Part shown: one piece after another, positions 36,621 through 48,490 of the stretch
How positions within the stretch are numbered: the first letter of the stretch is position 1
How the letters are laid out: every line of letters begins with the position of its first letter
Notes under the pieces: model-generated
What the model was told of the DNA's origin: nothing
The model's input: the letters and a program-made list of their open reading frames with translations, nothing else
Database searches by the model: none
Made by a program: the position numbers and the translations under genes
Source of the DNA: Fusobacterium mortiferum ATCC 9817
GTDB lineage: Bacteria; Fusobacteriota; Fusobacteriia; Fusobacteriales; Fusobacteriaceae
Reading direction: 5' to 3'
DNA length: 51,306 bases
Assembly (NCBI RefSeq): GCF_000158195.2
Contig: NZ_GL987988.1
Coordinates: 496,226-547,531, forward strand

Positions 36621-36729
36621 TAAAATGTAAAATATTTCAACTTAAATGTACAAATTTGTATATATTAATGCTGAATATTTAAAATTTGGTGTGTTTAAAA
36701 ATTTAAATATAGTAAAATAGACTTATAAT
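36621..36729 (+). promoter_or_regulatory. Box array A and promoter of the LytTR regulator gene
   Basis: Four related 8-mers start at 36621 (TAAAATGT), 36642 (TTAAATGT), 36664 (ATTAATGC) and 36685 (TTTGGTGT), spaced 21, 22 and 21 bp, i.e. two helical turns. A TATAAT (36724-36729) follows the last box by 31 bp, with a poor -35, as for an activated promoter. The same arrangement recurs at 37640-37747. Confidence 0.65.
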
Positions 36730-36842
36730 ATTAATGTTTAAATTTCTAGTATTAATTTTACTTTATTATTATATTTTACTTTTATAAGAAAATCTTTATA
36801 AAAATAAAAAGTAATTTATGAAAAATTAAAAGGAGGGGTTTA

Positions 36843-37637
36843 ATGGAACAAATAGGAGAAAGAATATTAAAAACATTTTTTTTTAATTACTTAATACTAA
36901 ATGATGTTCATTTAATTGAAAGTTTAGTCTCTGAAAATTTTGTAGGAATTGGAACTAGTAAGTTAGAAATTGCTAAAAATAAGGATGAATTTTTAGAGAG
37001 CTTAAAGAATAGAATAAAAAATATAGGTGGAAAAGTTAGTTTTTATATAAATAATTATATTGAAAGAAACTTAGGAAGTATAATATCTTCATATTGTGAT
37101 CTAACAATTATATATTTTCATAAGGAAAAAAGAAGCTTGGAAACAAGGCTAACAACAATATTTTTTTATGAAGATGGAGATTGGAAGATAATAAGTATGC
37201 ATAATTCTATTCCTGAACTAAAACAGAATAAGGATGAGGTTTTTCCAAGAGAGTGGATATTGGAAGCTGAAAATTTAGCCAATATAGAGATATATTTACT
37301 TGGAAAATTTAAAAGAGGATTTTTTAAAACAAAAGATATAAACTATATAACTTATTCAAGTGTTACAAGGAGATCTACTTTCTTTTTAAGAAACTCAAGT
37401 AGTTTTGAAATTAAAAGAAATTTTTCAGAGGTTGAAGAGAGATTGGAAACAATAAAGTCCTTTTATAAATTAGATAGAGGAACTATTGTTAATATAGAGG
37501 CAGTAGAGATTTTAGATTTAAAAGAGGAAAGAATTATTTTTAAAAATAAACAAACATTATATGTAAGTAAGGTTAAATTAAAAGAATTAGAATCTAAATG
37601 GATAAGTATTAAAAATAAAAAAAATATAGAATTTTAA
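36843..37637 (+). CDS. SnoaL-like/LytTR one-component transcription regulator
   Basis: A 264-residue protein without a signal peptide. Residues about 1-130 form a SnoaL/NTF2-like domain (LVSENFVGIGTS, LETRLTTIFFYEDGDWKIISMHNSIP), which may bind a small ligand. Residues about 145-260 are a LytTR DNA-binding domain (IEIYLLGKFKRGFFKTKDINYITY, FYKLDRGTIVNIEAVEIL, SKVKLKELESKW). LytTR proteins bind paired direct repeats. Such repeats lie on both sides of this gene, so it probably controls itself and the pilus operon that starts 269 bp downstream. AGGAGGGG precedes the ATG. Confidence 0.82.
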   Translation: MEQIGERILKTFFFNYLILNDVHLIESLVSENFVGIGTSKLEIAKNKDEFLESLKNRIKNIGGKVSFYINNYIERNLGSIISSYCDLTIIYFHKEKRSLETRLTTIFFYEDGDWKIISMHNSIPELKQNKDEVFPREWILEAENLANIEIYLLGKFKRGFFKTKDINYITYSSVTRRSTFFLRNSSSFEIKRNFSEVEERLETIKSFYKLDRGTIVNIEAVEILDLKEERIIFKNKQTLYVSKVKLKELESKWISIKNKKNIEF

Positions 37638-37639
37638 AA

Positions 37640-37747
37640 TTAAATGTAAAAAATAATGACTAAAATGTTTAGGTATTAATATTTTAATGTGAAATATTTA
37701 TAAATTAATGTATCTAAAGTTAAAAATGTTAAAATAAAGTTTATACT
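37640..37747 (+). promoter_or_regulatory. Box array B and promoter of the pilus-like operon
   Basis: Boxes start at 37640 (TTAAATGT), 37661 (TAAAATGT), 37683 (TTTAATGT) and 37704 (ATTAATGT), spaced 21, 22 and 21 bp as in array A. TATACT (37742-37747) follows the last box by 30 bp. A fifth, off-phase ATGT lies at 37726. The array starts 3 bp after the regulator's stop codon. Confidence 0.7.
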
Positions 37748-37750
37748 AGA

Positions 37751-37785
37751 AGTACTAGGATGTTTGTAACGCTCTAGTACTTTTT
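37751..37785 (+). terminator. Terminator overlapping the pilus promoter
   Basis: AGTACTAG (37751-37758) pairs with CTAGTACT (37774-37781), followed by TTTT. It begins 3 bp after the predicted -10 box of the pilus promoter, so it would end read-through from the regulator gene while transcripts started here would lack part of the left arm. Confidence 0.65.
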
Positions 37786-37906
37786 ACATTAAATTATAAA
37801 TTTTTAAGTTAGATTAGGAAAAAAGAAATAAATTATAAAAAATTTTAAAATATAAAAGTAAACTGTATTAGAATAGTTTTAAAACGAAAGGAGTAAGGGA
37901 TATACA

Positions 37907-38620
37907 TTGAGATATATTTTGATATTTTTATTTTTATTAAAAACAATTAGTTTTTCATTTTTAATAGATAGTATTGATTTTGATGAAGAGGTAGGTGGAA
38001 ATGGATATAGAGAGTATAAAATTTATAACCAGTCAATGCATAGAGCAATATATAAAGTGAAGATAAGTGGAGTTGGCGATATTGATATAACAAAAGATAT
38101 GTCAATATACCCTAATATATTGAGTCTAGACCCAAATACATATGGCGTATTAAAAATTTATGGTGGAAGTAGTACTAATTTACCTACAGGAGAATATTCT
38201 TTCAAATTAACTTTTACACCAATAGTTGTTCCAGAACTAAAAAAGGGAAAGGAAGATAAAATAACAGGTGGTTCTACAATTGGATTAGTTCCTGAGATTA
38301 TTATGACAGCCCACGTAGGAAATCCTAAAAGAGAAGAGACCTTAGATGTAGAAAACATACAATTTTATACAAAGGAAAATAAAAAGCTAGTATGTAAGAT
38401 GGATGTTATAAATAATTCACATGCAAGTATAACCTTGGGAGCCCAGTTTAAAGATAGAGAGAGAAATAAGGCTGATTCCAAAAGGTTAGGAAGAGTTAGT
38501 GGAAATAGCAGAGAAACTTTTGAAGTTGAAATTAATAACTTTAATGCTGGAGATGACATAGTCTATATAGAGCTATATAATACTCAGAAGGGTGTTTTTA
38601 TAAATAAAAAAATAAAATAA
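37907..38620 (+). CDS. PapD-like periplasmic pilus chaperone
   Basis: A 237-residue exported protein with signal peptide RYILIFLFLLKTISFSF. The mature part resembles the two Ig-like domains of fimbrial chaperones: IYNQSMHRAIYKVKISG, SIYPNILSLDPNTYGVLKIYG, then a second domain from about 140 (NIQFYTKENKKLVCKMDVINNS). Its expected role is to hold pilus subunits in the periplasm and bring them to the usher. Start is TTG 37907, with AAGGG and AAAGGAG upstream; no later start keeps the signal peptide. First gene of a nine-gene run ending at 48490. Confidence 0.72.
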   Translation: MRYILIFLFLLKTISFSFLIDSIDFDEEVGGNGYREYKIYNQSMHRAIYKVKISGVGDIDITKDMSIYPNILSLDPNTYGVLKIYGGSSTNLPTGEYSFKLTFTPIVVPELKKGKEDKITGGSTIGLVPEIIMTAHVGNPKREETLDVENIQFYTKENKKLVCKMDVINNSHASITLGAQFKDRERNKADSKRLGRVSGNSRETFEVEINNFNAGDDIVYIELYNTQKGVFINKKIK

Positions 38621-38641: not shown

Positions 38642-39229
38642 ATGAAAAAATTATTTTTAGCAGCAATGTTAGTTGTGGGAGCAACATCGTTTGGAGCAGT
38701 TGTAAAACCAGTTAATCAAGCACAAGGAACTACAGATGCACTATTACCACTAGTAGTTACAGGAAATGTAATAGAACCAACAGATTTAATGTTAGAGGTT
38801 ACACCAGTATTAAATGCTGGTCCAGATGGAAAATCATTAGCTCTTGATTTTGGAGATTTAATAAAAGGAAAATCTAAGCAAACATTAAATGGAACATTTA
38901 TAGCAAGATTATTGACTAGTGCTGGAAAAGAATCATATTTTGCAAATGAACCAACATATAAAATAGTTAAAGCTGATGGAACTGAAGTAAGTGATAACAA
39001 GCAAACTAATACATTAAATGGTGTTAAAATTGACTATAGTTTAGCACAACCTAAAGGGGAGGCAGGAGTAAAAACAAATAGAGGAACTGTAGTAGTTTCA
39101 GCAGATGCTACAGATGTAGGTGTTACGACTGGATTATTTACAGATACTGGATTATCAGTAAAAATATCAGTACCTAACCAAAAACCAGCAGAAAATACAT
39201 CTGATATTGAAGGAGCTAAAACATTTTAA
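38642..39229 (+). CDS. Major pilus subunit (predicted)
   Basis: A 195-residue exported protein: signal peptide KKLFLAAMLVVGATSFGA, then a beta-rich Ala/Thr/Gly-containing sequence with few aromatic residues, as in pilins. It has no Cys. The block EPTDLMLEVTPVLN, FGDLIKGKSKQTLNGTFIARL recurs in the last gene of the operon, identifying a subunit family. The strong AAGGAGAGG site and a stable hairpin pair after the stop codon would favour higher expression than the genes downstream. The N-terminal extension VVKPVNQAQGTTDALLPLVV could be the donor strand. Confidence 0.7.
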   Translation: MKKLFLAAMLVVGATSFGAVVKPVNQAQGTTDALLPLVVTGNVIEPTDLMLEVTPVLNAGPDGKSLALDFGDLIKGKSKQTLNGTFIARLLTSAGKESYFANEPTYKIVKADGTEVSDNKQTNTLNGVKIDYSLAQPKGEAGVKTNRGTVVVSADATDVGVTTGLFTDTGLSVKISVPNQKPAENTSDIEGAKTF

Positions 39230-39322: not shown

Positions 39323-41977
39323 ATGAAGAAAATAATGTTTTTATATGCATATCTTATTCTATCTTTACACTCATTTAGTATAGAGTATAGTTTGGAAGAG
39401 TTAACAGAGATGTATAATCAAAATATACTAACAAAAGAAGACTATGAAATATTAAAAAGTCAAATGGAAAAAATAGAGGAAAAAGAGGGGTTATATTTAT
39501 TAAAGCTAAATAATAGATATGTTTCAAATAATTTTATTGTAAGAGAGAGAGAAAATCTTAATTACTTAGACTTAACAAAGTTTATTGAGATAATTGGATT
39601 AAAGAATGTTGAGCAAACAGAAAAAGAGTTGACTTTATACATAGGAGAAGAGTTAGAAAAGATTGATATTGATTTATTGAAAAATAGAATATATTTTCAA
39701 AATAGGGTAATAGAAAACTCTTTTTTTCAAGAAAATGATAGTATTTTTCTAAAAGAAGAAACATTTAAAGAGCTATTCTTAAATCATTTAGATATAGATA
39801 AACAAAACTTAAAAATAACAATGTCCTTGAACTTCACAGAACCAAAAGATATTTTAAGATTGCTTGAGTTTAAAAAAGAGAGCCTAGAAAAGAAAGAGAT
39901 AGAAAAAAATAATGAAAAAGTTATAAAAGGGACAAGAGAACTTTTTGCACCTGGATATTTAAGAATTAAAGGAGAGCAAGAATTTGATAAGGGTTCAACT
40001 GAAAAAAGCTATAAAAAAGACTGGAATGGAGAGATAAGTTATCAAGGAGCACTTTTATATGGAGAGTTTACAGGAAAATATGATTTAAGAAATAGCTATT
40101 TGGGAACTCTAAACCTAAACTACAAAGATATTTGGAAAGAACATACCTTTACTATTGAGAATAGAAGGGTAAAAAAGGAAGATAATAGTACTAGTAGAGA
40201 GTGGGGATTTTCATTTTATAAAGATAAGGGATACTTTAATCTAGGAGAAAAAGTAATAATAAGAGAGAGTGTTCCTATTGGAAGTAGGGTAGAGTTACTA
40301 TATATGGGAACTCCCATAGAGATAAAAGATGATGATAATGGGGTTGTAATTTTTGACAATGAATTAATAAAAACAGATAAAACTTATGAATTAAAAATTT
40401 ATACGAACGACAACCAGATATATACAAAGGAGATTAAACCAACTCAAGATTACAATAGGCAAGCTAAGAATGAAGTAAAATACTCTTTATATCTAAACGA
40501 AGATAAGTATAGAGGAGGTAAATATAGAGGAATAGCAAATGCTTATTATGGAGTAACTAATAGGTTGACAATTGGAGCAGGTGTTCGTAGAGAGATTGAA
40601 TTATTCAACGATTATAGTGAAGCAAAACCTAAAAATTTTTATATAAACTATGGGAGTTTAGAAACAATATATGGTGGAGTATATAATAGCATTGGTTATA
40701 CTTTAAAATTAAATGGAGAAAAAGCTTTTTCCAAATTGAGTAACAATGAAAAGAACTATGAGGATAATTATACATATACAGGACTTGGAGAAATTAGATA
40801 TAAAAAGTATAGTGCAACTTTTAGTAAGACTCAATATGGTAAATATTATTCTCAAAAAGAGATGAATAATTTTAGATTCAAATATGATGTAAATGAAAGC
40901 CTAAGGTTAGAATATAATTATGACACTCAGAAAGATTATCGAGGGAAAATAGAAAAAAATTCTAAGATTGGATTATCTGCAGATAAAAAATATAAAAATA
41001 TTTTGTTTATGGCAAATACACAAGTTGATTTAATTGATTCTGATAAAAATATTTATAGTTTAGGAGCTTATTATGCAGGCTTTCAACATATGACTATAAA
41101 ATTAGAAAATAGGTGGAAAGATTCAGGAAGAAATTATGAGAGCATTTTGACTCTTTATAATAATAATTTTAAAGGTCTTTTTGATGTTTCAACAGAATTG
41201 AAATATGAGAAAGAAAAGAAAGATATGATAAGTTTGAGAGTTACTATGAAGTTAGATGATTTATTTACAATAGGAAGTAGTTTAGCTAGTAACGGGGAGA
41301 GAAATTATAAAATTGGAGTTGATAAAGTTGTTGACTTAAAAAATCCTAAGCTTAAACTTGATAATACTGATGTATCAAGAGCTGATATTGTCACTTTTAT
41401 TGATGAGAATGGAAATGATAAATATGATAAAGGAGAAAAATTTCTAAAAGGAGTTGAGATAACTGTAGGAAAACAAATAGCTGTTACAAATGAAGTAGGG
41501 AAAGCAACTCTTTTTGCATTATCCAATGGAATGGAACATGAATTAAATATAGTTATAAAAAATCCTAACTATACATTAAATAATGAAAAAATAAGAATAT
41601 TGAGTAATTACAGCTCAAATGTAAAAGTATATATTCCAGTAAAGCCACTTATTAATATAGGAGGAAAGATAGAATTTGATAAAGATATTGAAGGAGTAGA
41701 ATTTGAAAAGCAAGATTTTTATTCTAATCTTTTAATTGAAGTTATGGATAAAACAGGGAAAATATTGGAATTAGTCGCTCCAGATAATACTGGATATTTC
41801 GACATAAGTGGACTTATCCCTGAAGAGTATCAATTATCAGTAAAATATACTGGGATAAAGTACAATTTACCTCCTCTTATAAGAGAGTTTTGTTTAAATT
41901 GTAAAAATGTAGAGTCTAGAAAAGAGATTACATTAAAAATATCTAAAAAAGATATTGAATTATATGGTGAATTATAG
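39323..41977 (+). CDS. Usher-like outer-membrane protein
   Basis: An 884-residue protein in the size range of pilus ushers. Signal peptide KKIMFLYAYLILSLHSFS; N-terminal domain to about 200; then a barrel with the usher-type plug region (VIIRESVPIGSRVELLYMGTPIEI, TYELKIYTNDNQIYTKEIKPTQDY) and ANAYYGVTNRLTIGAGVRREIE. The end carries a Ca-binding SdrD-B/Cna-B-like domain (FIDENGNDKYDKGEKFLKGVEITV) and a further beta domain with two Cys (FCLNCKN). It would secrete and polymerise the subunits through the outer membrane. Divergence from classical FimD is large, so the assignment rests on both motifs and gene order. Confidence 0.7.
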   Translation: MKKIMFLYAYLILSLHSFSIEYSLEELTEMYNQNILTKEDYEILKSQMEKIEEKEGLYLLKLNNRYVSNNFIVRERENLNYLDLTKFIEIIGLKNVEQTEKELTLYIGEELEKIDIDLLKNRIYFQNRVIENSFFQENDSIFLKEETFKELFLNHLDIDKQNLKITMSLNFTEPKDILRLLEFKKESLEKKEIEKNNEKVIKGTRELFAPGYLRIKGEQEFDKGSTEKSYKKDWNGEISYQGALLYGEFTGKYDLRNSYLGTLNLNYKDIWKEHTFTIENRRVKKEDNSTSREWGFSFYKDKGYFNLGEKVIIRESVPIGSRVELLYMGTPIEIKDDDNGVVIFDNELIKTDKTYELKIYTNDNQIYTKEIKPTQDYNRQAKNEVKYSLYLNEDKYRGGKYRGIANAYYGVTNRLTIGAGVRREIELFNDYSEAKPKNFYINYGSLETIYGGVYNSIGYTLKLNGEKAFSKLSNNEKNYEDNYTYTGLGEIRYKKYSATFSKTQYGKYYSQKEMNNFRFKYDVNESLRLEYNYDTQKDYRGKIEKNSKIGLSADKKYKNILFMANTQVDLIDSDKNIYSLGAYYAGFQHMTIKLENRWKDSGRNYESILTLYNNNFKGLFDVSTELKYEKEKKDMISLRVTMKLDDLFTIGSSLASNGERNYKIGVDKVVDLKNPKLKLDNTDVSRADIVTFIDENGNDKYDKGEKFLKGVEITVGKQIAVTNEVGKATLFALSNGMEHELNIVIKNPNYTLNNEKIRILSNYSSNVKVYIPVKPLINIGGKIEFDKDIEGVEFEKQDFYSNLLIEVMDKTGKILELVAPDNTGYFDISGLIPEEYQLSVKYTGIKYNLPPLIREFCLNCKNVESRKEITLKISKKDIELYGEL

Positions 41978-41985
41978 GAGAAAAA

Positions 41986-42543
41986 ATGATAAAAAATAAT
42001 TTAAGTTTATTTATACTTTTTTTAGCTTTATCTCAAATAATTTTTTCCAATGATGAAGAATTAGAAAAGTTTATTGAAGTAGATAAGGAGTTATATAATA
42101 AGGAAAAATTAGATAAAATAAAAGAATTAAATTTACCAGAAGTCAATAAAGAAAAAAGATACATAACAAAAGAGGGGGTAAGAGAACTTGAAAAGGTATA
42201 TAATGTATATTTAGATATGAAAGTGAATGTCTATGTTCCTCTAGAAATAGTTTCTGATATTAATATTTATGCTACTGTTTTAGGAAATGAGATTTTAGAA
42301 ATTCCTTTTGATTTAGAATTGAATAGAAGACCTGAAAAGAATAATTATTATTCTATAAAATATAGTGATATGGTATTTGATATCGATAATGATGGCGAGG
42401 AAGATACTTATATTTATTCACCTAAGTATATAAATGAAAGGATAGAAACGAATAACTATGTCAAAATATACGGGGAAAGGATATCAAATGAGGGAAGCTA
42501 TAAAAAACGTATCTATATGACAGTGGAAATAGGAGAGGAATAG
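41986..42543 (+). CDS. Exported pilus-locus protein with a Ca-binding-like loop
   Basis: A 185-residue exported protein with signal peptide LSLFILFLALSQIIFS. An acidic helical stretch follows (NDEELEKFIEVDKELYNKEKL). The second half is beta-rich and has DIDNDGEEDTYIYSP, a calcium-loop-like motif. It ends in alternating polar and hydrophobic residues (YKKRIYMTVEIGEE), as subunits often do. It is 8 bp after the usher gene. Minor subunit or assembly factor; not recognised as a named family. Confidence 0.55.
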   Translation: MIKNNLSLFILFLALSQIIFSNDEELEKFIEVDKELYNKEKLDKIKELNLPEVNKEKRYITKEGVRELEKVYNVYLDMKVNVYVPLEIVSDINIYATVLGNEILEIPFDLELNRRPEKNNYYSIKYSDMVFDIDNDGEEDTYIYSPKYINERIETNNYVKIYGERISNEGSYKKRIYMTVEIGEE

Positions 42544-42561
42544 TTAGAACGGAGGACAAAA

Positions 42562-43029
42562 ATGTTCAAAAAATTAGTAATTTTAATATTAATTTTATCA
42601 ACTACAACCTTTGCAAAAATAATGGTAAAAGTTTATGAACCTATAAGGTTTAAAGATATAAATAGTAGTGAAATTGGAAATATAGTAACAGGTGAAGGAA
42701 TAATAGAGATTTTTACTGATAATTTCGAGGAGGATTTTGGTAAAAAAGTAATTTTAAAATTTCCATCAGATGGGTTAATGACAAATTCAAAAAAATGGTT
42801 AAATGTTGATAAATATATGATAGATGAAGGGAATAGAGAGATAGATATTATACAAGAGAGAAGAAGAGTAAAAGTATATGCTATCTTAAAAAAGACACAA
42901 ATAGATGACAAAACATATACAGCTGAGCAATTAGAAGGAGAATATGTAGGATATGCTCCAGTTATAGTTGAAGTATATGGACGGTTGATTAAAAATCTAG
43001 AAAGTGATAATAAAAATAGCGAGGAATAG
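42562..43029 (+). CDS. Exported pilus-locus protein, possible minor subunit
   Basis: A 155-residue exported protein (signal FKKLVILILILSTTTFA) that is beta-rich throughout: KIMVKVYEPIRFKDI, GEGIIEIFTDNFEEDFGKKVILKFP, RRRVKVYAILKKTQ, YVGYAPVIVEVYGRL. CGGAGG precedes the ATG. The pattern fits a small pilin or adaptor. No family recognised. Confidence 0.55.
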   Translation: MFKKLVILILILSTTTFAKIMVKVYEPIRFKDINSSEIGNIVTGEGIIEIFTDNFEEDFGKKVILKFPSDGLMTNSKKWLNVDKYMIDEGNREIDIIQERRRVKVYAILKKTQIDDKTYTAEQLEGEYVGYAPVIVEVYGRLIKNLESDNKNSEE

Positions 43030-43031
43030 AG

Positions 43032-44507
43032 ATGAAGATATTATTAGTTTTATTTTTATTAATATCTAAATTAAGTTTTTCATATATTAATATTTATCCA
43101 GTAAAATTTGTAGAAAGAATTGATAATGAGGGAGCTTATAAAAAATTTGTGCTTTATAATAAAAGTGAAGATAGAGTAAGATATAGGTTTTATTTTGAAA
43201 AAACTAATAAGAAAATGGATATGAGTGATTGGTGTAGTCTATCTTTAACTTCATTAGAATTAGAACCTCTAGAGAGAAAAGAAATAGTAATTTTGTGTAA
43301 AGCTCCAGAAAATGTTTTAAGTGGAAGATATACAGCCAAATTAGCAATAAAAGAAGTAGATGTAGTTTTAAAGGATAGGAAGTTACAGCATAAAAGATAT
43401 TTAACAAAATTAATTTTGAATATGGTTGGATATGTAGGGGAGAGAGGAGTAGCTATGTTAAAAAGTGAAGAGCTCAATCTCGAAGGTATAAAATTTATAG
43501 ATATTAATGATAGTAATTTAATATTTACTAGGCAAGGTAGAACTTACATATATAATCTTGAACAGAAAAAAATTCAAAATAATTATGATGGGGAAATTTT
43601 AGAGAGAGTAAATGATAGATATATATTGAAAATAAAAAATAGATATGAACTTAGAAATCTGGATTTTTATGATAAAAGTTTAAGCTTTGAAGAGGTCTTA
43701 GAGAGTGGAAATATAGGAACCTTTATTGTTAAAAAAGATAATAAATATGGAGTTATAAATAAAGATGGTAAGATTTTGATTGATTTTAAATATAAAATTT
43801 TAGAGAAATTTAAAGGAGAGTTTTCTATTTATCAAAACTTTGATAATCATAAAAAAGGGATAATTGATTCAAAAGGAAAGATTTTATTAAACCCTATTTT
43901 TGATGAACTTTATATAACGAAGAATGGAAATTGGTTAGGAAAGAAAAAAGGACTCTATTTTACTTCTAATATGAAAGTTTTAAAAATAGATAGAATTATT
44001 CCAAATAAAAAAGATATTTTAGTTTATGAAAAAGACAATAAATATGGACTTATAAATTTATTTAATTTGAAATTTACTGAAAATATTTATGAAAATATAA
44101 GTCAAGAGGTAGATACTGGGTTCATTATAGAAAATGAAGGGAAATATAGTTTAATAAAGAGTGGAGAATTTTTTGAAAATAAAATTGAAAATGATGTAGA
44201 TACTCAACATGATTATATTATAAAAATTGATGATGATATATATGGATTAGGTAATTTTAAAAGAAAAAGTTTGAAATACTATAACCTTTATACTGGAGTT
44301 AAGTTAGAACAAGAATTTAAAAATTTAAAAAAGGGAAGTTCAGAGGTAGTAGTTGGAGAAGTAAAAGATGAATACTACTTTATAAGAAGCAGTGATAGTA
44401 AAATAATAGCTAAAACAAAGAAAGATAATTTAATATATATCAATAAAAAATATATTCTTCTAAAGGAAAAAATAGACTACAAATTAATAAATATACAGGA
44501 GATTTAA
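43032..44507 (+). CDS. Chaperone-like domain fused to WG-type repeats
   Basis: A 491-residue exported protein. Residues about 20-135 resemble the first Ig domain of pilus chaperones (KFVLYNKSEDRVRYRFYFEKT, LELEPLERKEIVILCKAPENVLSGRYTAKLAI). From about 150 it carries WG-like beta repeats: KKDNKYGVINKDGKILIDFKYK, then NHKKGIIDSKGKILLNPIF and EKDNKYGLINLFNLKFTE. The combination is unusual. The repeats could form a propeller-like docking surface in the periplasm. It begins 2 bp after the previous stop codon, so it is tightly coupled. Confidence 0.6.
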   Translation: MKILLVLFLLISKLSFSYINIYPVKFVERIDNEGAYKKFVLYNKSEDRVRYRFYFEKTNKKMDMSDWCSLSLTSLELEPLERKEIVILCKAPENVLSGRYTAKLAIKEVDVVLKDRKLQHKRYLTKLILNMVGYVGERGVAMLKSEELNLEGIKFIDINDSNLIFTRQGRTYIYNLEQKKIQNNYDGEILERVNDRYILKIKNRYELRNLDFYDKSLSFEEVLESGNIGTFIVKKDNKYGVINKDGKILIDFKYKILEKFKGEFSIYQNFDNHKKGIIDSKGKILLNPIFDELYITKNGNWLGKKKGLYFTSNMKVLKIDRIIPNKKDILVYEKDNKYGLINLFNLKFTENIYENISQEVDTGFIIENEGKYSLIKSGEFFENKIENDVDTQHDYIIKIDDDIYGLGNFKRKSLKYYNLYTGVKLEQEFKNLKKGSSEVVVGEVKDEYYFIRSSDSKIIAKTKKDNLIYINKKYILLKEKIDYKLINIQEI

Positions 44508-44509
44508 AA

Positions 44510-44899
44510 ATGAAATATTTCAAATTTATATACTTTGTTTTAATATTATTTTTAATAAGAGATAATATCTTTGCAATTTCTATCGATTCTCTTGATTTTA
44601 ATCAAAAGTTAAAAAAAGGGGAAAAAGTTGAAAAAATAATGACGATTGCAAATAATAGTAATGAAACTTTAGAATATATTTTAGCAATTGATGGAACTAA
44701 AAACATAGGAATTGATCATAAAAAATTTAGTTTAAAGTCTAAAGAAACTAAAAGAATCAGTTTTAAGATAGTAGCAGAGAGAGAAGTAGGAGATAAAGAT
44801 TTTTTTATAATAATAACAGAGAGAAAATTGGAAAAAATAGATGGAATTACTACAAACTTTAGGTATAGAATAAAACAAAAATATACAGTTGTAGAATAA
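44510..44899 (+). CDS. Single-domain chaperone-like exported protein
   Basis: A 129-residue exported protein. After its signal peptide (KFIYFVLILFLIRDNIFA) comes one Ig-like domain like the first domain of PapD chaperones: IDSLDFNQKLKKGEKVEKIMTIANNS, IDHKKFSLKSKETKRISFKI. The second domain is missing. It starts 2 bp after the WG-repeat gene. It may serve the large adhesin gene that follows. Confidence 0.6.
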   Translation: MKYFKFIYFVLILFLIRDNIFAISIDSLDFNQKLKKGEKVEKIMTIANNSNETLEYILAIDGTKNIGIDHKKFSLKSKETKRISFKIVAEREVGDKDFFIIITERKLEKIDGITTNFRYRIKQKYTVVE

Positions 44900-44928
44900 A
44901 ATGAATATAGTTTCGTAAGGGGATAAAA

Positions 44929-47900
44929 ATGAAAAAAATTATACTTATATTTTTATTGTTATCAAGTTATTTAGTATCTTTTTCAGAAATAGAACAGGAA
45001 GATGTAACTAAAAATCCATTGAGAGAGGTAACAACATATACTACAGCTCGTATAAGAGAGAAAGCAATACTTGATTTAACAGTAGAAAAACTTAATATTA
45101 GGGGGATAACATATTCTAAGTTAGAGGATGGAAATATGGTATTTGAAATAAATAAAACAGAGGGAATAATACCTAAGTATCTTGTAACTACTTCAACAGA
45201 TTTAATTCCTAGGGATATTAAAGTAAATGGTAAAAATATTAATAGAGATACAAAAGGTAAAAAGTTAGAGTTTACTTATAAAGAAGATATAGAAAACCTA
45301 AGGGATAACATTTACATAGAAATAGCTCAAAATTTTACCCCACCTTTGTATATTTCAAAACTTGATAGCAAAACAGGAAAATTATTAGAAGTATATGAAT
45401 ATAAAGAAATACCAAAGACCAGAAGAGCAAGAAGTACAGGAACAGTTAATCCTGGAAATACTACTTTAAATAGTTTTTATTTAGGAAAGATGATACCAGG
45501 TGAAATTCTAGAAAAAGGTGGTTTTTCTATGGATGGAGGAAAGGAGTATACAGAGTGGTTTAATGGCATAGAGGGAGGATTTGAAAATAAATCTATGACT
45601 TTTAATAAGAGAGACACTTCACAAAATATACCAATTAATGCTACAGTATCAGTTTGGTGGGATATAGAATTACTAAAAGGGTATACAATAAATGATGTTT
45701 GGGAATTTGATAAAACAAAGCAACTTACTGGAGTAAGTGATTCTACATCTTCAAAAATAGCTCATAAAGTTATTTATGCAGCTGATTGGAGAGGAACATG
45801 GTGGACATCAGTTCCACAAGTAAAATTGTATCATGGTTTTACAATAAATATTCCATCTAGTTATAAAAATAAAGCATTTGGACTTTATGGGATAAGAGAA
45901 TATGAAATTCCAGGAAGAGTTTTACGTACAAGTGATAAAAAGGGAAATATTTATGATATTACCACTCCAGAACTTATTGAATTTTTAGTTCAAAGAGATC
46001 CAAGAACTATAAATGTAAGAGTAGTTAGAGAATCAAATCCAATTATTACAATGGGTGGACAAGTATATTCTAAATTCAGTTTAAATAATTTTTCACAGCA
46101 TGGCTATAGTTTTAGGTTTAGCTATAATACAGCTGGAAAAGATGCTGGGAAAGGAATAAGCATAGGTCCTTATGATGGATTACTGATTCCAACAAATTTA
46201 CCCTCAGGAACTTATGAAATAGATGTAGTAGCACAATTGTCAGGGATTAATGATAATTTACAAATTGGAGGACAACCAGATAAAATTATCATAGAATATG
46301 AAAGACAACCTGATATTTTAACTCTTAAGGAGTTAGATTTAAGAAGTTTTCTAAGTAATACTTGGGGACGTTGGAAAGATATTTTTGCAGAGTTAAAAGC
46401 TTATGATGGGGACTCAAATAGCTCAGGAGAAAAATATAGTTTTAAAGAGCAAATACTTTCTGGTCTAAAATTTGATTTGAAAAAAACCAAGAAGATAAAA
46501 CTTTTTAAAGAGGGAATAGAAGTAGCTAATAGTATCTCTCATAGTAATGGAAGAGTTGATGTAAATTATGAAGACTTGGGTTTTGGGATAGATGGTGGAG
46601 AACTTTTAGGAGAGTTTTTTATAGATAAGAAAGGTTATTATTACTTTGGAGATGCTGAATATAGACTTGATTTTTATGATGAAGAGGATAGATTATTTGG
46701 ACGAATGAATATCTCTGTAATAAAAGATAGGGGAATAGATATTGGAAGTGTTAGTTATGAGGTTGATAATCTATTAATAGATTATATGAAAGCTACAGGA
46801 ACAGGACAGTTTTTTATTGGAATGTCTGATAATATTGGAGCTTTCCAACAAAATAAGTATAAGGATTTAATAATTAAAGGAAGTGGAAGTTATATTAACA
46901 GTGAGATTACTTCCATTATTCCTAAAGAAGTAGTAAATGTTACTGAAAATGGAACTGCTAATTTAGGGTTTAAAGTAAAATCTAATAGTAGACAAATAGA
47001 TAGAGGGGCAGGAGGAGGACAAATTAGAATTTCATATAATAGAGATAATTCATCAAGAGAGGTAATTTATTATAATTTGATAAATACTGCAGTTACTTTA
47101 TCAGATCTTCAAGATAAAATTATATTTAATCTTAAAACTTTGAATGAAAGTAATTCTTATAGTGATAGTTTCTATACTGGATTTCAAATAGATGATGGAA
47201 GAGTTTATGAGATGAAATATGAGTTTGTTAAATCTACTAAAACTTCATATAAAGAGGCTAGTTATACAATAGATACAACAGATTTTCAAGTTGGGAAAGA
47301 GTATACTTTTGATTTATCAACAGGTGATGAGATAGTAGCTAATGGAAATACAACTAAAAAGAAATTAACAAAATCGGGAGAAGTATTTGAATATTCTCTT
47401 TTAGGAAATTCTAATCCTGATATGGCAGCCTTTACAGTAGAAGATTTAGCATCTAAACTTTCAACAGCAGGTTTAGATAATTACACTATAAAACTTGAAA
47501 AAGATAGTACTAATAGAAAAACACTATTAAAAATTAAAAAGAATTCTAGTGTAAAATTAGAAAATAAAAAGCTAGAAGGAAAGATTAATTTTTACGATAT
47601 AACTGTAGGAAAGATTACATTAAATATCTCAGATAAAGGGCCATCTTTTGAGTTAATAGATGATGGAGAGTTAGATTTTGGAATTTTAACATACGATTCA
47701 TACAATACTTATGTAAAAGGAGAAAAGATATTTTCGGTAAAAAATCCGAACTCATATCCTATTACTTTCACACTACAAAAAAATTCTGGAATATTGACAA
47801 GTGTTTCTAGCTCTACTAGTACAATTCCTGTAGAAAATCTTAAAATAACCCAAAGTAAAAAAACTCCAATAAATGGAGTTAATACATTTTTACTAGAAGG

Positions 47901-47991
47901 GTATGCTAAGCCATATCCAAATATGGCCTCAGGAGAGTATACAGGAGAGATAATGATAGATATTACAATTGATACAACTAGTTCCAATTAA
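44929..47991 (+). CDS. Large exported adhesin-like protein (predicted pilus tip)
   Basis: A 1020-residue exported protein with signal peptide KKIILIFLLLSSYLVSFS. It is beta-rich with many aromatic and charged residues, and has no membrane segments after the signal. A run of basic residues (KTRRARS) near 163 is a possible cleavage or linker site. The C-terminal ~100 residues (FELIDDGELDFGILTYDSYNTYVKGEKIFSVKN, MASGEYTGEIMIDITID) look like a pilin domain that could dock into the fibre. Large adhesin plus pilin domain is the layout of two-domain tip adhesins. Receptor unknown. Confidence 0.6.
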   Translation: MKKIILIFLLLSSYLVSFSEIEQEDVTKNPLREVTTYTTARIREKAILDLTVEKLNIRGITYSKLEDGNMVFEINKTEGIIPKYLVTTSTDLIPRDIKVNGKNINRDTKGKKLEFTYKEDIENLRDNIYIEIAQNFTPPLYISKLDSKTGKLLEVYEYKEIPKTRRARSTGTVNPGNTTLNSFYLGKMIPGEILEKGGFSMDGGKEYTEWFNGIEGGFENKSMTFNKRDTSQNIPINATVSVWWDIELLKGYTINDVWEFDKTKQLTGVSDSTSSKIAHKVIYAADWRGTWWTSVPQVKLYHGFTINIPSSYKNKAFGLYGIREYEIPGRVLRTSDKKGNIYDITTPELIEFLVQRDPRTINVRVVRESNPIITMGGQVYSKFSLNNFSQHGYSFRFSYNTAGKDAGKGISIGPYDGLLIPTNLPSGTYEIDVVAQLSGINDNLQIGGQPDKIIIEYERQPDILTLKELDLRSFLSNTWGRWKDIFAELKAYDGDSNSSGEKYSFKEQILSGLKFDLKKTKKIKLFKEGIEVANSISHSNGRVDVNYEDLGFGIDGGELLGEFFIDKKGYYYFGDAEYRLDFYDEEDRLFGRMNISVIKDRGIDIGSVSYEVDNLLIDYMKATGTGQFFIGMSDNIGAFQQNKYKDLIIKGSGSYINSEITSIIPKEVVNVTENGTANLGFKVKSNSRQIDRGAGGGQIRISYNRDNSSREVIYYNLINTAVTLSDLQDKIIFNLKTLNESNSYSDSFYTGFQIDDGRVYEMKYEFVKSTKTSYKEASYTIDTTDFQVGKEYTFDLSTGDEIVANGNTTKKKLTKSGEVFEYSLLGNSNPDMAAFTVEDLASKLSTAGLDNYTIKLEKDSTNRKTLLKIKKNSSVKLENKKLEGKINFYDITVGKITLNISDKGPSFELIDDGELDFGILTYDSYNTYVKGEKIFSVKNPNSYPITFTLQKNSGILTSVSSSTSTIPVENLKITQSKKTPINGVNTFLLEGYAKPYPNMASGEYTGEIMIDITIDTTSSN

Positions 47992-48001
47992 AGGAGAGCA
48001 G

Positions 48002-48490
48002 ATGAAAGGAAGATATTTGTTAATATATTTATTTATAATTTTTTCTAGCTTATTTGGATCAGATGGGAATATTACTGTAAAAATGAAAGCAAAGGTTTTA
48101 GATCCTACAGATCTTTATTTAGAGGTTATTCCAATCACCAATGCTATAGATGATGGAAGTAAGATGTATTTTGATTTTGGAGAATTAGTAAAAGGAAGTA
48201 AACAAGAGTTAGTTGGAAAGTTTCAAGCTAGGTTAATGAGGGGAGGAGTTGCACAAAATATTGAAAACGTTAAAGCTAGTTTAATTAAAGAAAGTTCCTC
48301 CCAAGAAGAGAAGAAAATAGTTTCATTGTTAGATCAAACTGACTTGACATATATATTAAGTGGAGAAACAGAAAAGAAAAAATATAATGGAAGTATTAGA
48401 ATAATAGCTGATACTTCTAAAGGTAATAGTACTGGGAGATTTATAGATAATAGTGTAAAAATAAAGGTGTTAGTAACAAATAATAATTAG
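48002..48490 (+). CDS. Second pilus subunit, paralogue of the major subunit
   Basis: A 162-residue exported protein (signal RYLLIYLFIIFSSLFGS). It shares with the 38642 subunit the block DPTDLYLEVIPITN, FDFGELVKGSKQELVGKFQARL, and a similar end (GSIRIIADTSKGNSTGRF, VKIKVLVTN). ATG 48002 follows AAGGAGAG and precedes the signal peptide; the upstream ATG 47969 overlaps the adhesin gene. Its distal place suggests a minor subunit such as an anchor or adaptor. Confidence 0.72.
   Translation: MKGRYLLIYLFIIFSSLFGSDGNITVKMKAKVLDPTDLYLEVIPITNAIDDGSKMYFDFGELVKGSKQELVGKFQARLMRGGVAQNIENVKASLIKESSSQEEKKIVSLLDQTDLTYILSGETEKKKYNGSIRIIADTSKGNSTGRFIDNSVKIKVLVTNNN

Follow-up and report, generated by a model that had tools for sequence, protein, structure and literature searches.

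LytTR proteins typically bind paired repeats of 9-11 bp separated by gaps of 11-13 bp (PMC4847170), and the direct repeats bound by known LytTR activators lie immediately upstream of the -35 element (PMC6193735, PMC2838878). At the AgrA promoters P2/P3, the VirR boxes and the YpdB target yhjX, receiver-LytTR proteins, which work with a kinase, bind pairs of imperfect direct repeats that lie on the same face of the DNA upstream of the promoter (PMC4227749, PMC2838878, PMC4847170). In the HdrRM and BrsRM systems, the LytTR protein activates its own operon, in positive feedback, together with other operons, through two 9-bp repeats placed 11-13 bp apart upstream of the -35, and is itself controlled by a membrane inhibitor protein (PMC6193735). 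In RcoM (heme-PAS-LytTR) and CoxC (MHYT-LytTR), a sensor domain is fused to LytTR instead of a receiver; their operators consist of three evenly spaced 8-bp direct repeats with gaps of 12-13 bp (TTCNNGCA / TTNNNGCN) and their targets are genes of CO metabolism, CoxC being a repressor (PMC11347149).

Here, we analysed a stretch of 51,306 nucleotides from Fusobacterium mortiferum ATCC 9817 (hereafter, the window), in which two arrays of short direct repeats, A and B, lie before and after a LytTR gene, array B preceding a putative surface-fibre operon (Table 1). Like RcoM and CoxC, the window regulator is a fusion of LytTR with a sensor-like domain, and the arrays are built of evenly spaced 8-bp direct repeats; however, the fused domain is SnoaL rather than PAS or MHYT, the box sequence is different, the boxes number four as opposed to the three of the RcoM triplet, and the neighbouring operon is predicted to encode a surface fibre rather than CO metabolism. 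The proposed positive feedback recalls HdrRM/BrsRM, but those regulators have two repeats, not four boxes, and no SnoaL, and the open reading frame list places no transmembrane inhibitor gene of the LRS type next to the window regulator. The same-face repeats upstream of a promoter are likewise reminiscent of AgrA, VirR and YpdB, which differ in using repeat pairs rather than arrays of four and in having a receiver domain and a kinase; a domain search found no receiver in the window regulator, and no kinase-like gene immediately flanks it in the open reading frame list. The original prediction had likened the spacing to known LytTR direct repeats about two turns apart, and the 8-bp boxes with gaps of 13-14 bp bear this out (PMC4847170, PMC11347149). 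In both arrays, at least two direct repeats ~21-22 bp apart stand directly upstream of a promoter, and the arrays extend the known LytTR direct-repeat promoters with a four-box form.

Table 1. Features of the locus (positions are those of the window)
Feature	Position	Strand	Details
Box A1	36621..36628	+	TAAAATGT
Box A2	36642..36649	+	TTAAATGT
Box A3	36664..36671	+	ATTAATGC
Box A4	36685..36692	+	TTTGGTGT; weakest against the consensus
-10 of regulator promoter	36724..36729	+	TATAAT; 39 bp from A4 start; poor -35
Regulator gene	36843..37637	+	264 aa; SnoaL_3 20-124 and LytTR 162-252; no receiver domain
T9 tract	36876..36884	+	Regulator codons 12-14; T8 in the paralogue, frame interrupted
Box B1	37640..37647	+	TTAAATGT; begins 3 bp past the regulator stop codon
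Box B2	37661..37668	+	TAAAATGT
Box B3	37683..37690	+	TTTAATGT
Box B4	37704..37711	+	ATTAATGT
-10 of operon promoter	37742..37747	+	TATACT; 38 bp from B4 start
Intrinsic-terminator-like hairpin and U tract	37749..37786	+	-13.9 kcal/mol, z -4.1
First operon gene, periplasmic-chaperone-like	37907..38620	+	237 aa, TTG start
Putative fibre subunit	38642..39229	+	195 aa, signal-peptide-like start; assigned from position and size
Usher-like outer-membrane protein	39323..41977	+	884 aa; no Pfam usher match
Rest of operon	41986..48490	+	Putative roles
Two small secreted-looking proteins	within 41986..48490	+	Putative role
Chaperone-like protein fused to WG repeats	43032..44507	+	491 aa; putative role
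Chaperone-like protein	44510..44899	+	Putative role
Tip-like protein	44929..47991	+	1020 aa; putative role
Second subunit-like protein	47969..48490	+	Putative role

Two four-box arrays, the regulator between them and the operon beyond

Re-reading of the sequence reproduced the positions previously claimed for arrays A and B, the spacing of 21-22-21 bp in both, and the -10 elements 31 bp past box A4 and 30 bp past box B4. Box A4, which had been singled out as the weakest, indeed accounts for two of the four mismatches to WTWAATGT among the 32 letters of array A, array B having a single one. The two arrays are far beyond chance: an order-1 AT-rich null produces one match with at most four mismatches at the 21-22-21 spacing per 4 Mb, and, save for shifted registers of A and B, no further site matching as well was found on either strand of the 51-kb window. 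When the scoring matrix was built without the array under test, A and B were each the top match in their own intergenic region, with 0 of 2000 shuffles reaching A and 0 of 2000 reaching B. The G of the box is in register in all eight boxes of A and B, in local DNA with ~11% G; once the paralogous array C, described below, is included, all 12 boxes align on a G with T or C as the next letter. A search for a fifth box 20-23 bp outside either array end returned nothing save a weak candidate 20 bp upstream of B1. The boxes of A and B fit the classical LytTR consensus only loosely. The spacers of the two arrays are partly alike as well (25 of 40 letters), so that some of the resemblance between A and B may stem from duplication.

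The gene between the arrays, as had been claimed, encodes a LytTR protein (PF04397, residues 162-252; E-value 1.2e-11; 45.1 bits, the cut-off being 22.6), and its N-terminal region matches SnoaL_3 (PF13474, E-value 1.6e-10). Its closest relatives of solved structure are AgrA and ComE, with weak E-values (0.025 and 0.3, respectively); a single-sequence structure prediction of the regulator reached a pLDDT of 31 and was left unused. The gene is followed by the chaperone-like gene of the operon and preceded by a gene on the opposite strand. The same genome carries two more LytTR genes, one for a SnoaL-LytTR paralogue (54-55% identity, 54% over the length of the two proteins) and the other for a 226-aa protein with a different N-terminus. 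The two SnoaL-LytTR proteins form one clade among the LytTR proteins of the family (99/97 support), and no SnoaL-LytTR orthologue was found among 98 genomes of the phylum, where the other LytTR proteins share the LytTR half only; scans of genome contigs likewise yielded no SnoaL-LytTR relatives, and a literature search retrieved no paper joining SnoaL and LytTR. In two related genomes (G033 and G030; L122 from 1358 and L123 from 1063), hybrid sensor histidine kinases also carry SnoaL-like N-termini, which fits an input role and suggests that SnoaL is an input domain.

It is plausible that the operon downstream of array B is a pilus operon, judging from gene order, gene sizes and a PapD_N match, the latter obtained for the chaperone of one relative only. 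The 884-aa protein did not match the usher models, and searches with Pfam, NCBIfam and PDB sequences yielded nothing decisive for naming the operon. A literature search combining Fusobacterium with chaperone-usher or LytTR brought up no evident study of the control of surface-fibre operons in this group of bacteria.

A paralogous array and related boxes in other genera

Searching both strands of 16 kb at the paralogous locus with a matrix derived solely from A and B gave array C as the top match, which sits exactly between the paralogous SnoaL-LytTR gene and a chaperone/usher-like fibre operon of its own. Array C comprises four boxes with a spacing of 22-22-22 and a TATAAT 38 bp from the start of box 4, and its score was reached by 2 of 2000 shuffles. 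In pattern searches over the genome (2.67 Mb), three ATGT motifs at the array spacing occurred in four places, three of them falling in B and C and the other being a chance site, and the pattern of box 3, box 4 and -10 had three matches, namely B, C and one site within a coding sequence. No array was found before the paralogous regulator gene, which has a consensus sigma-70 promoter (TTGACA-18-TATAAT); accordingly, autoregulation appears to be specific to the window copy.

The third LytTR protein, of 226 aa, has a LytTR domain 55% identical to that of the window regulator, and its gene, unlike that of the SnoaL-LytTR protein, has orthologues in other genera. A membrane-protein gene lies in front of it and a divergent gene beyond, which in several genomes encodes a large autotransporter-like protein. 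The best solution in 10 of the 12 divergent promoters at these loci was a triplet of boxes at 21-21 bp, with the last box starting 37 or 38 bp before the -10; each of the ten triplets had p ≤ 0.07 and six had p ≤ 0.005, and the Fisher p across all 12 promoters was ~5e-11, a value that ignores kinship. The box positions hardly vary: of 21 representative triplet boxes, 20 have the G, 18 the T that follows it and 19 an A at +8. Arrays A, B and C share this core, and the boxes thus look like sites of this LytTR clade. The 226-aa system shares with the window the LytTR clade, the box core and the distance to the -10, but differs in having three boxes at 21-21 bp, another N-terminal region, a membrane-protein partner and a divergent target. 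The three-box arrays at divergent promoters are found at L036 6850-6934 and in L154-L162.

As SnoaL-LytTR orthologues were found in no other genome searched, the conservation of spacing on which the original prediction had been made to depend was assessed through the paralogue and the sister LytTR genes: at the paralogous locus a four-box array recurs, but with a spacing of 22-22-22 and not before the regulator gene, whereas at the sister LytTR loci the boxes and their distance to the -10 recur, but as three boxes at 21-21. The same model applied to pilus-like operons of relatives reached p ≤ 0.01 in 1 of 28 cases, indicating that it does not fire everywhere. Arrays before the pilus-like operons of relatives were rejected as a candidate feature, as this sole case fails after correction.

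Promoters, hairpins and the proposed regulation

The distance from the start of box 4 to the start of the -10 is 39, 38 and 38 bp in A, B and C, respectively, and box 4 ends ~43 bp before the predicted transcription start. All three arrays are followed by a good -10 but have a poor -35, as expected for activation. The 5' arm of the terminator-like hairpin at the operon promoter overlaps the predicted transcription start (~37754), and a counterpart follows the -10 of the array C operon (L035 5835-5877, z -5.1); both hairpins begin 1-2 nt past the -10, and none follows the -10 at array A (z +0.35). The RNA from the predicted operon start folds weakly. A consensus terminator scan did not include the hairpins of B and C among its matches, probably because mismatches near the loop interrupt their stems. 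Given that B and C lie downstream of a co-directional regulator gene, whereas A has no co-directional gene upstream, the hairpin may serve to end the regulator transcript, with the operon transcript escaping it.

The arrays, their geometry, the paralogous copy, the clade-wide boxes and the hairpin are features of the sequence itself, from which we infer binding by the SnoaL-LytTR protein, activation, its stoichiometry, an input signal and the role of the terminator. Arrays A and B are likely to serve as operators for the SnoaL-LytTR protein whose gene they flank, and through both this regulator probably activates its own gene and the fibre operon. This agrees in part with the original prediction, which had autoregulation and activation of the pilus operon by the same regulator, possibly with two dimers per promoter; the SnoaL_3 fusion lacking a receiver and the second copy of regulator, array and operon go beyond that prediction. 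LytTR domains would occupy all four boxes from the same face of the helix, over six turns and from about -115 to -43 relative to the predicted start, and would recruit RNA polymerase to the two promoters that combine a good -10 with a poor -35. Binding at array A would activate the regulator's own gene, creating positive feedback, and binding at array B would activate the chaperone-usher-like surface-fibre operon. SnoaL, a domain of the NTF2 fold standing in the place of the receiver, would act as an input or dimer-forming module, yielding a one-component regulator. The hairpin just past the operon -10 would stop read-through from the regulator gene, and transcripts from the operon promoter, beginning inside its 5' arm, would escape, leaving the operon dependent on its own array. 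Points that weigh against this reading are that the genomes searched yielded no SnoaL-LytTR orthologue, that the spacers of A and B are partly alike, that other chaperone-usher-like operons of the family lack arrays (1 of 28 at p ≤ 0.01), that the paralogous regulator gene has none, that the similar LytTR domain of the 226-aa protein could recognise the boxes, and that these fit the classical consensus only loosely.

The identity between the LytTR domains and the presence of the same kind of box at the promoter neighbouring its own gene raise the question of whether the 226-aa protein could be the main binder of the arrays, or could share them with the SnoaL-LytTR protein. This appears unlikely, given that four-box arrays are found solely beside the two SnoaL-LytTR genes, that most pilus-like operons lack arrays in relatives having the 226-aa protein, and that the array of the 226-aa system itself has three boxes, flanked differently (A at +8). 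We give slightly less credence still to repression, in which the SnoaL-LytTR protein would silence its own gene or both promoters and would be released, for example, by a SnoaL ligand. The sensor-LytTR fusion CoxC does repress through three direct repeats (PMC11347149), but the CoxC repeats overlap the -35, whereas box 4 here ends ~43 bp upstream of the predicted start; moreover, it is the promoters with arrays A, B and C that have a poor -35, whereas the array-less paralogous regulator gene has TTGACA-18-TATAAT.

The repeats might also be nothing but phased A/T-rich DNA, acting through curvature or as UP-like elements and appearing box-like in a window of 72% A+T. Although both boxes and spacers are AT-rich and some spacer letters are common to A and B, we regard such an origin as very improbable, because G followed by T or C keeps its register in 12 of 12 boxes, dinucleotide-preserving nulls do not reproduce the arrays, and the likeness to C and to other genera does not lie in A-tracts. 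The clade-wide box definition and the fixed distance between box and -10 would allow prediction of targets in many genomes, and the occurrence of two, three or four boxes offers a simple test of how box number relates to LytTR output.

The regulator genes differ in a T tract close to their start: at the position matching the T9 of the window regulator, the paralogue has T8 (L035 4962-4969), and its frame breaks after 15 codons. The idea that the T9 tract is unusual in itself was rejected: the genome contains 61 such tracts, and 12 of 30 sampled ones lie within open reading frames of at least 120 aa. With T9 this common, the T9/T8 difference may stem from slippage, from decay of one of the copies or from a sequencing error, and could possibly represent a phase-variable switch, a pseudogene or such an error. 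A far more elaborate scheme would unite a SnoaL/NTF2-headed one-component LytTR regulator bound as a cooperative tetramer to exactly four in-phase boxes, self-feedback, a fibre-operon start inside the regulator terminator and a slippable T8/T9 on/off switch. We hold this combination to be improbable; if true, the two copies would provide mix-and-match on/off control of two fibre types.

Two further observations concern pilus-like operons of relatives. In another genus (G029, L075 ~2466-2570), such an operon is preceded by a possible 22-22-21 array (p = 0.0025, uncorrected). Inspection by eye also revealed small Rrf2-like or winged-helix-like genes, in place of LytTR genes, before the pilus-like operons of relatives at L071 4015-4656 and L104 4050-4451.
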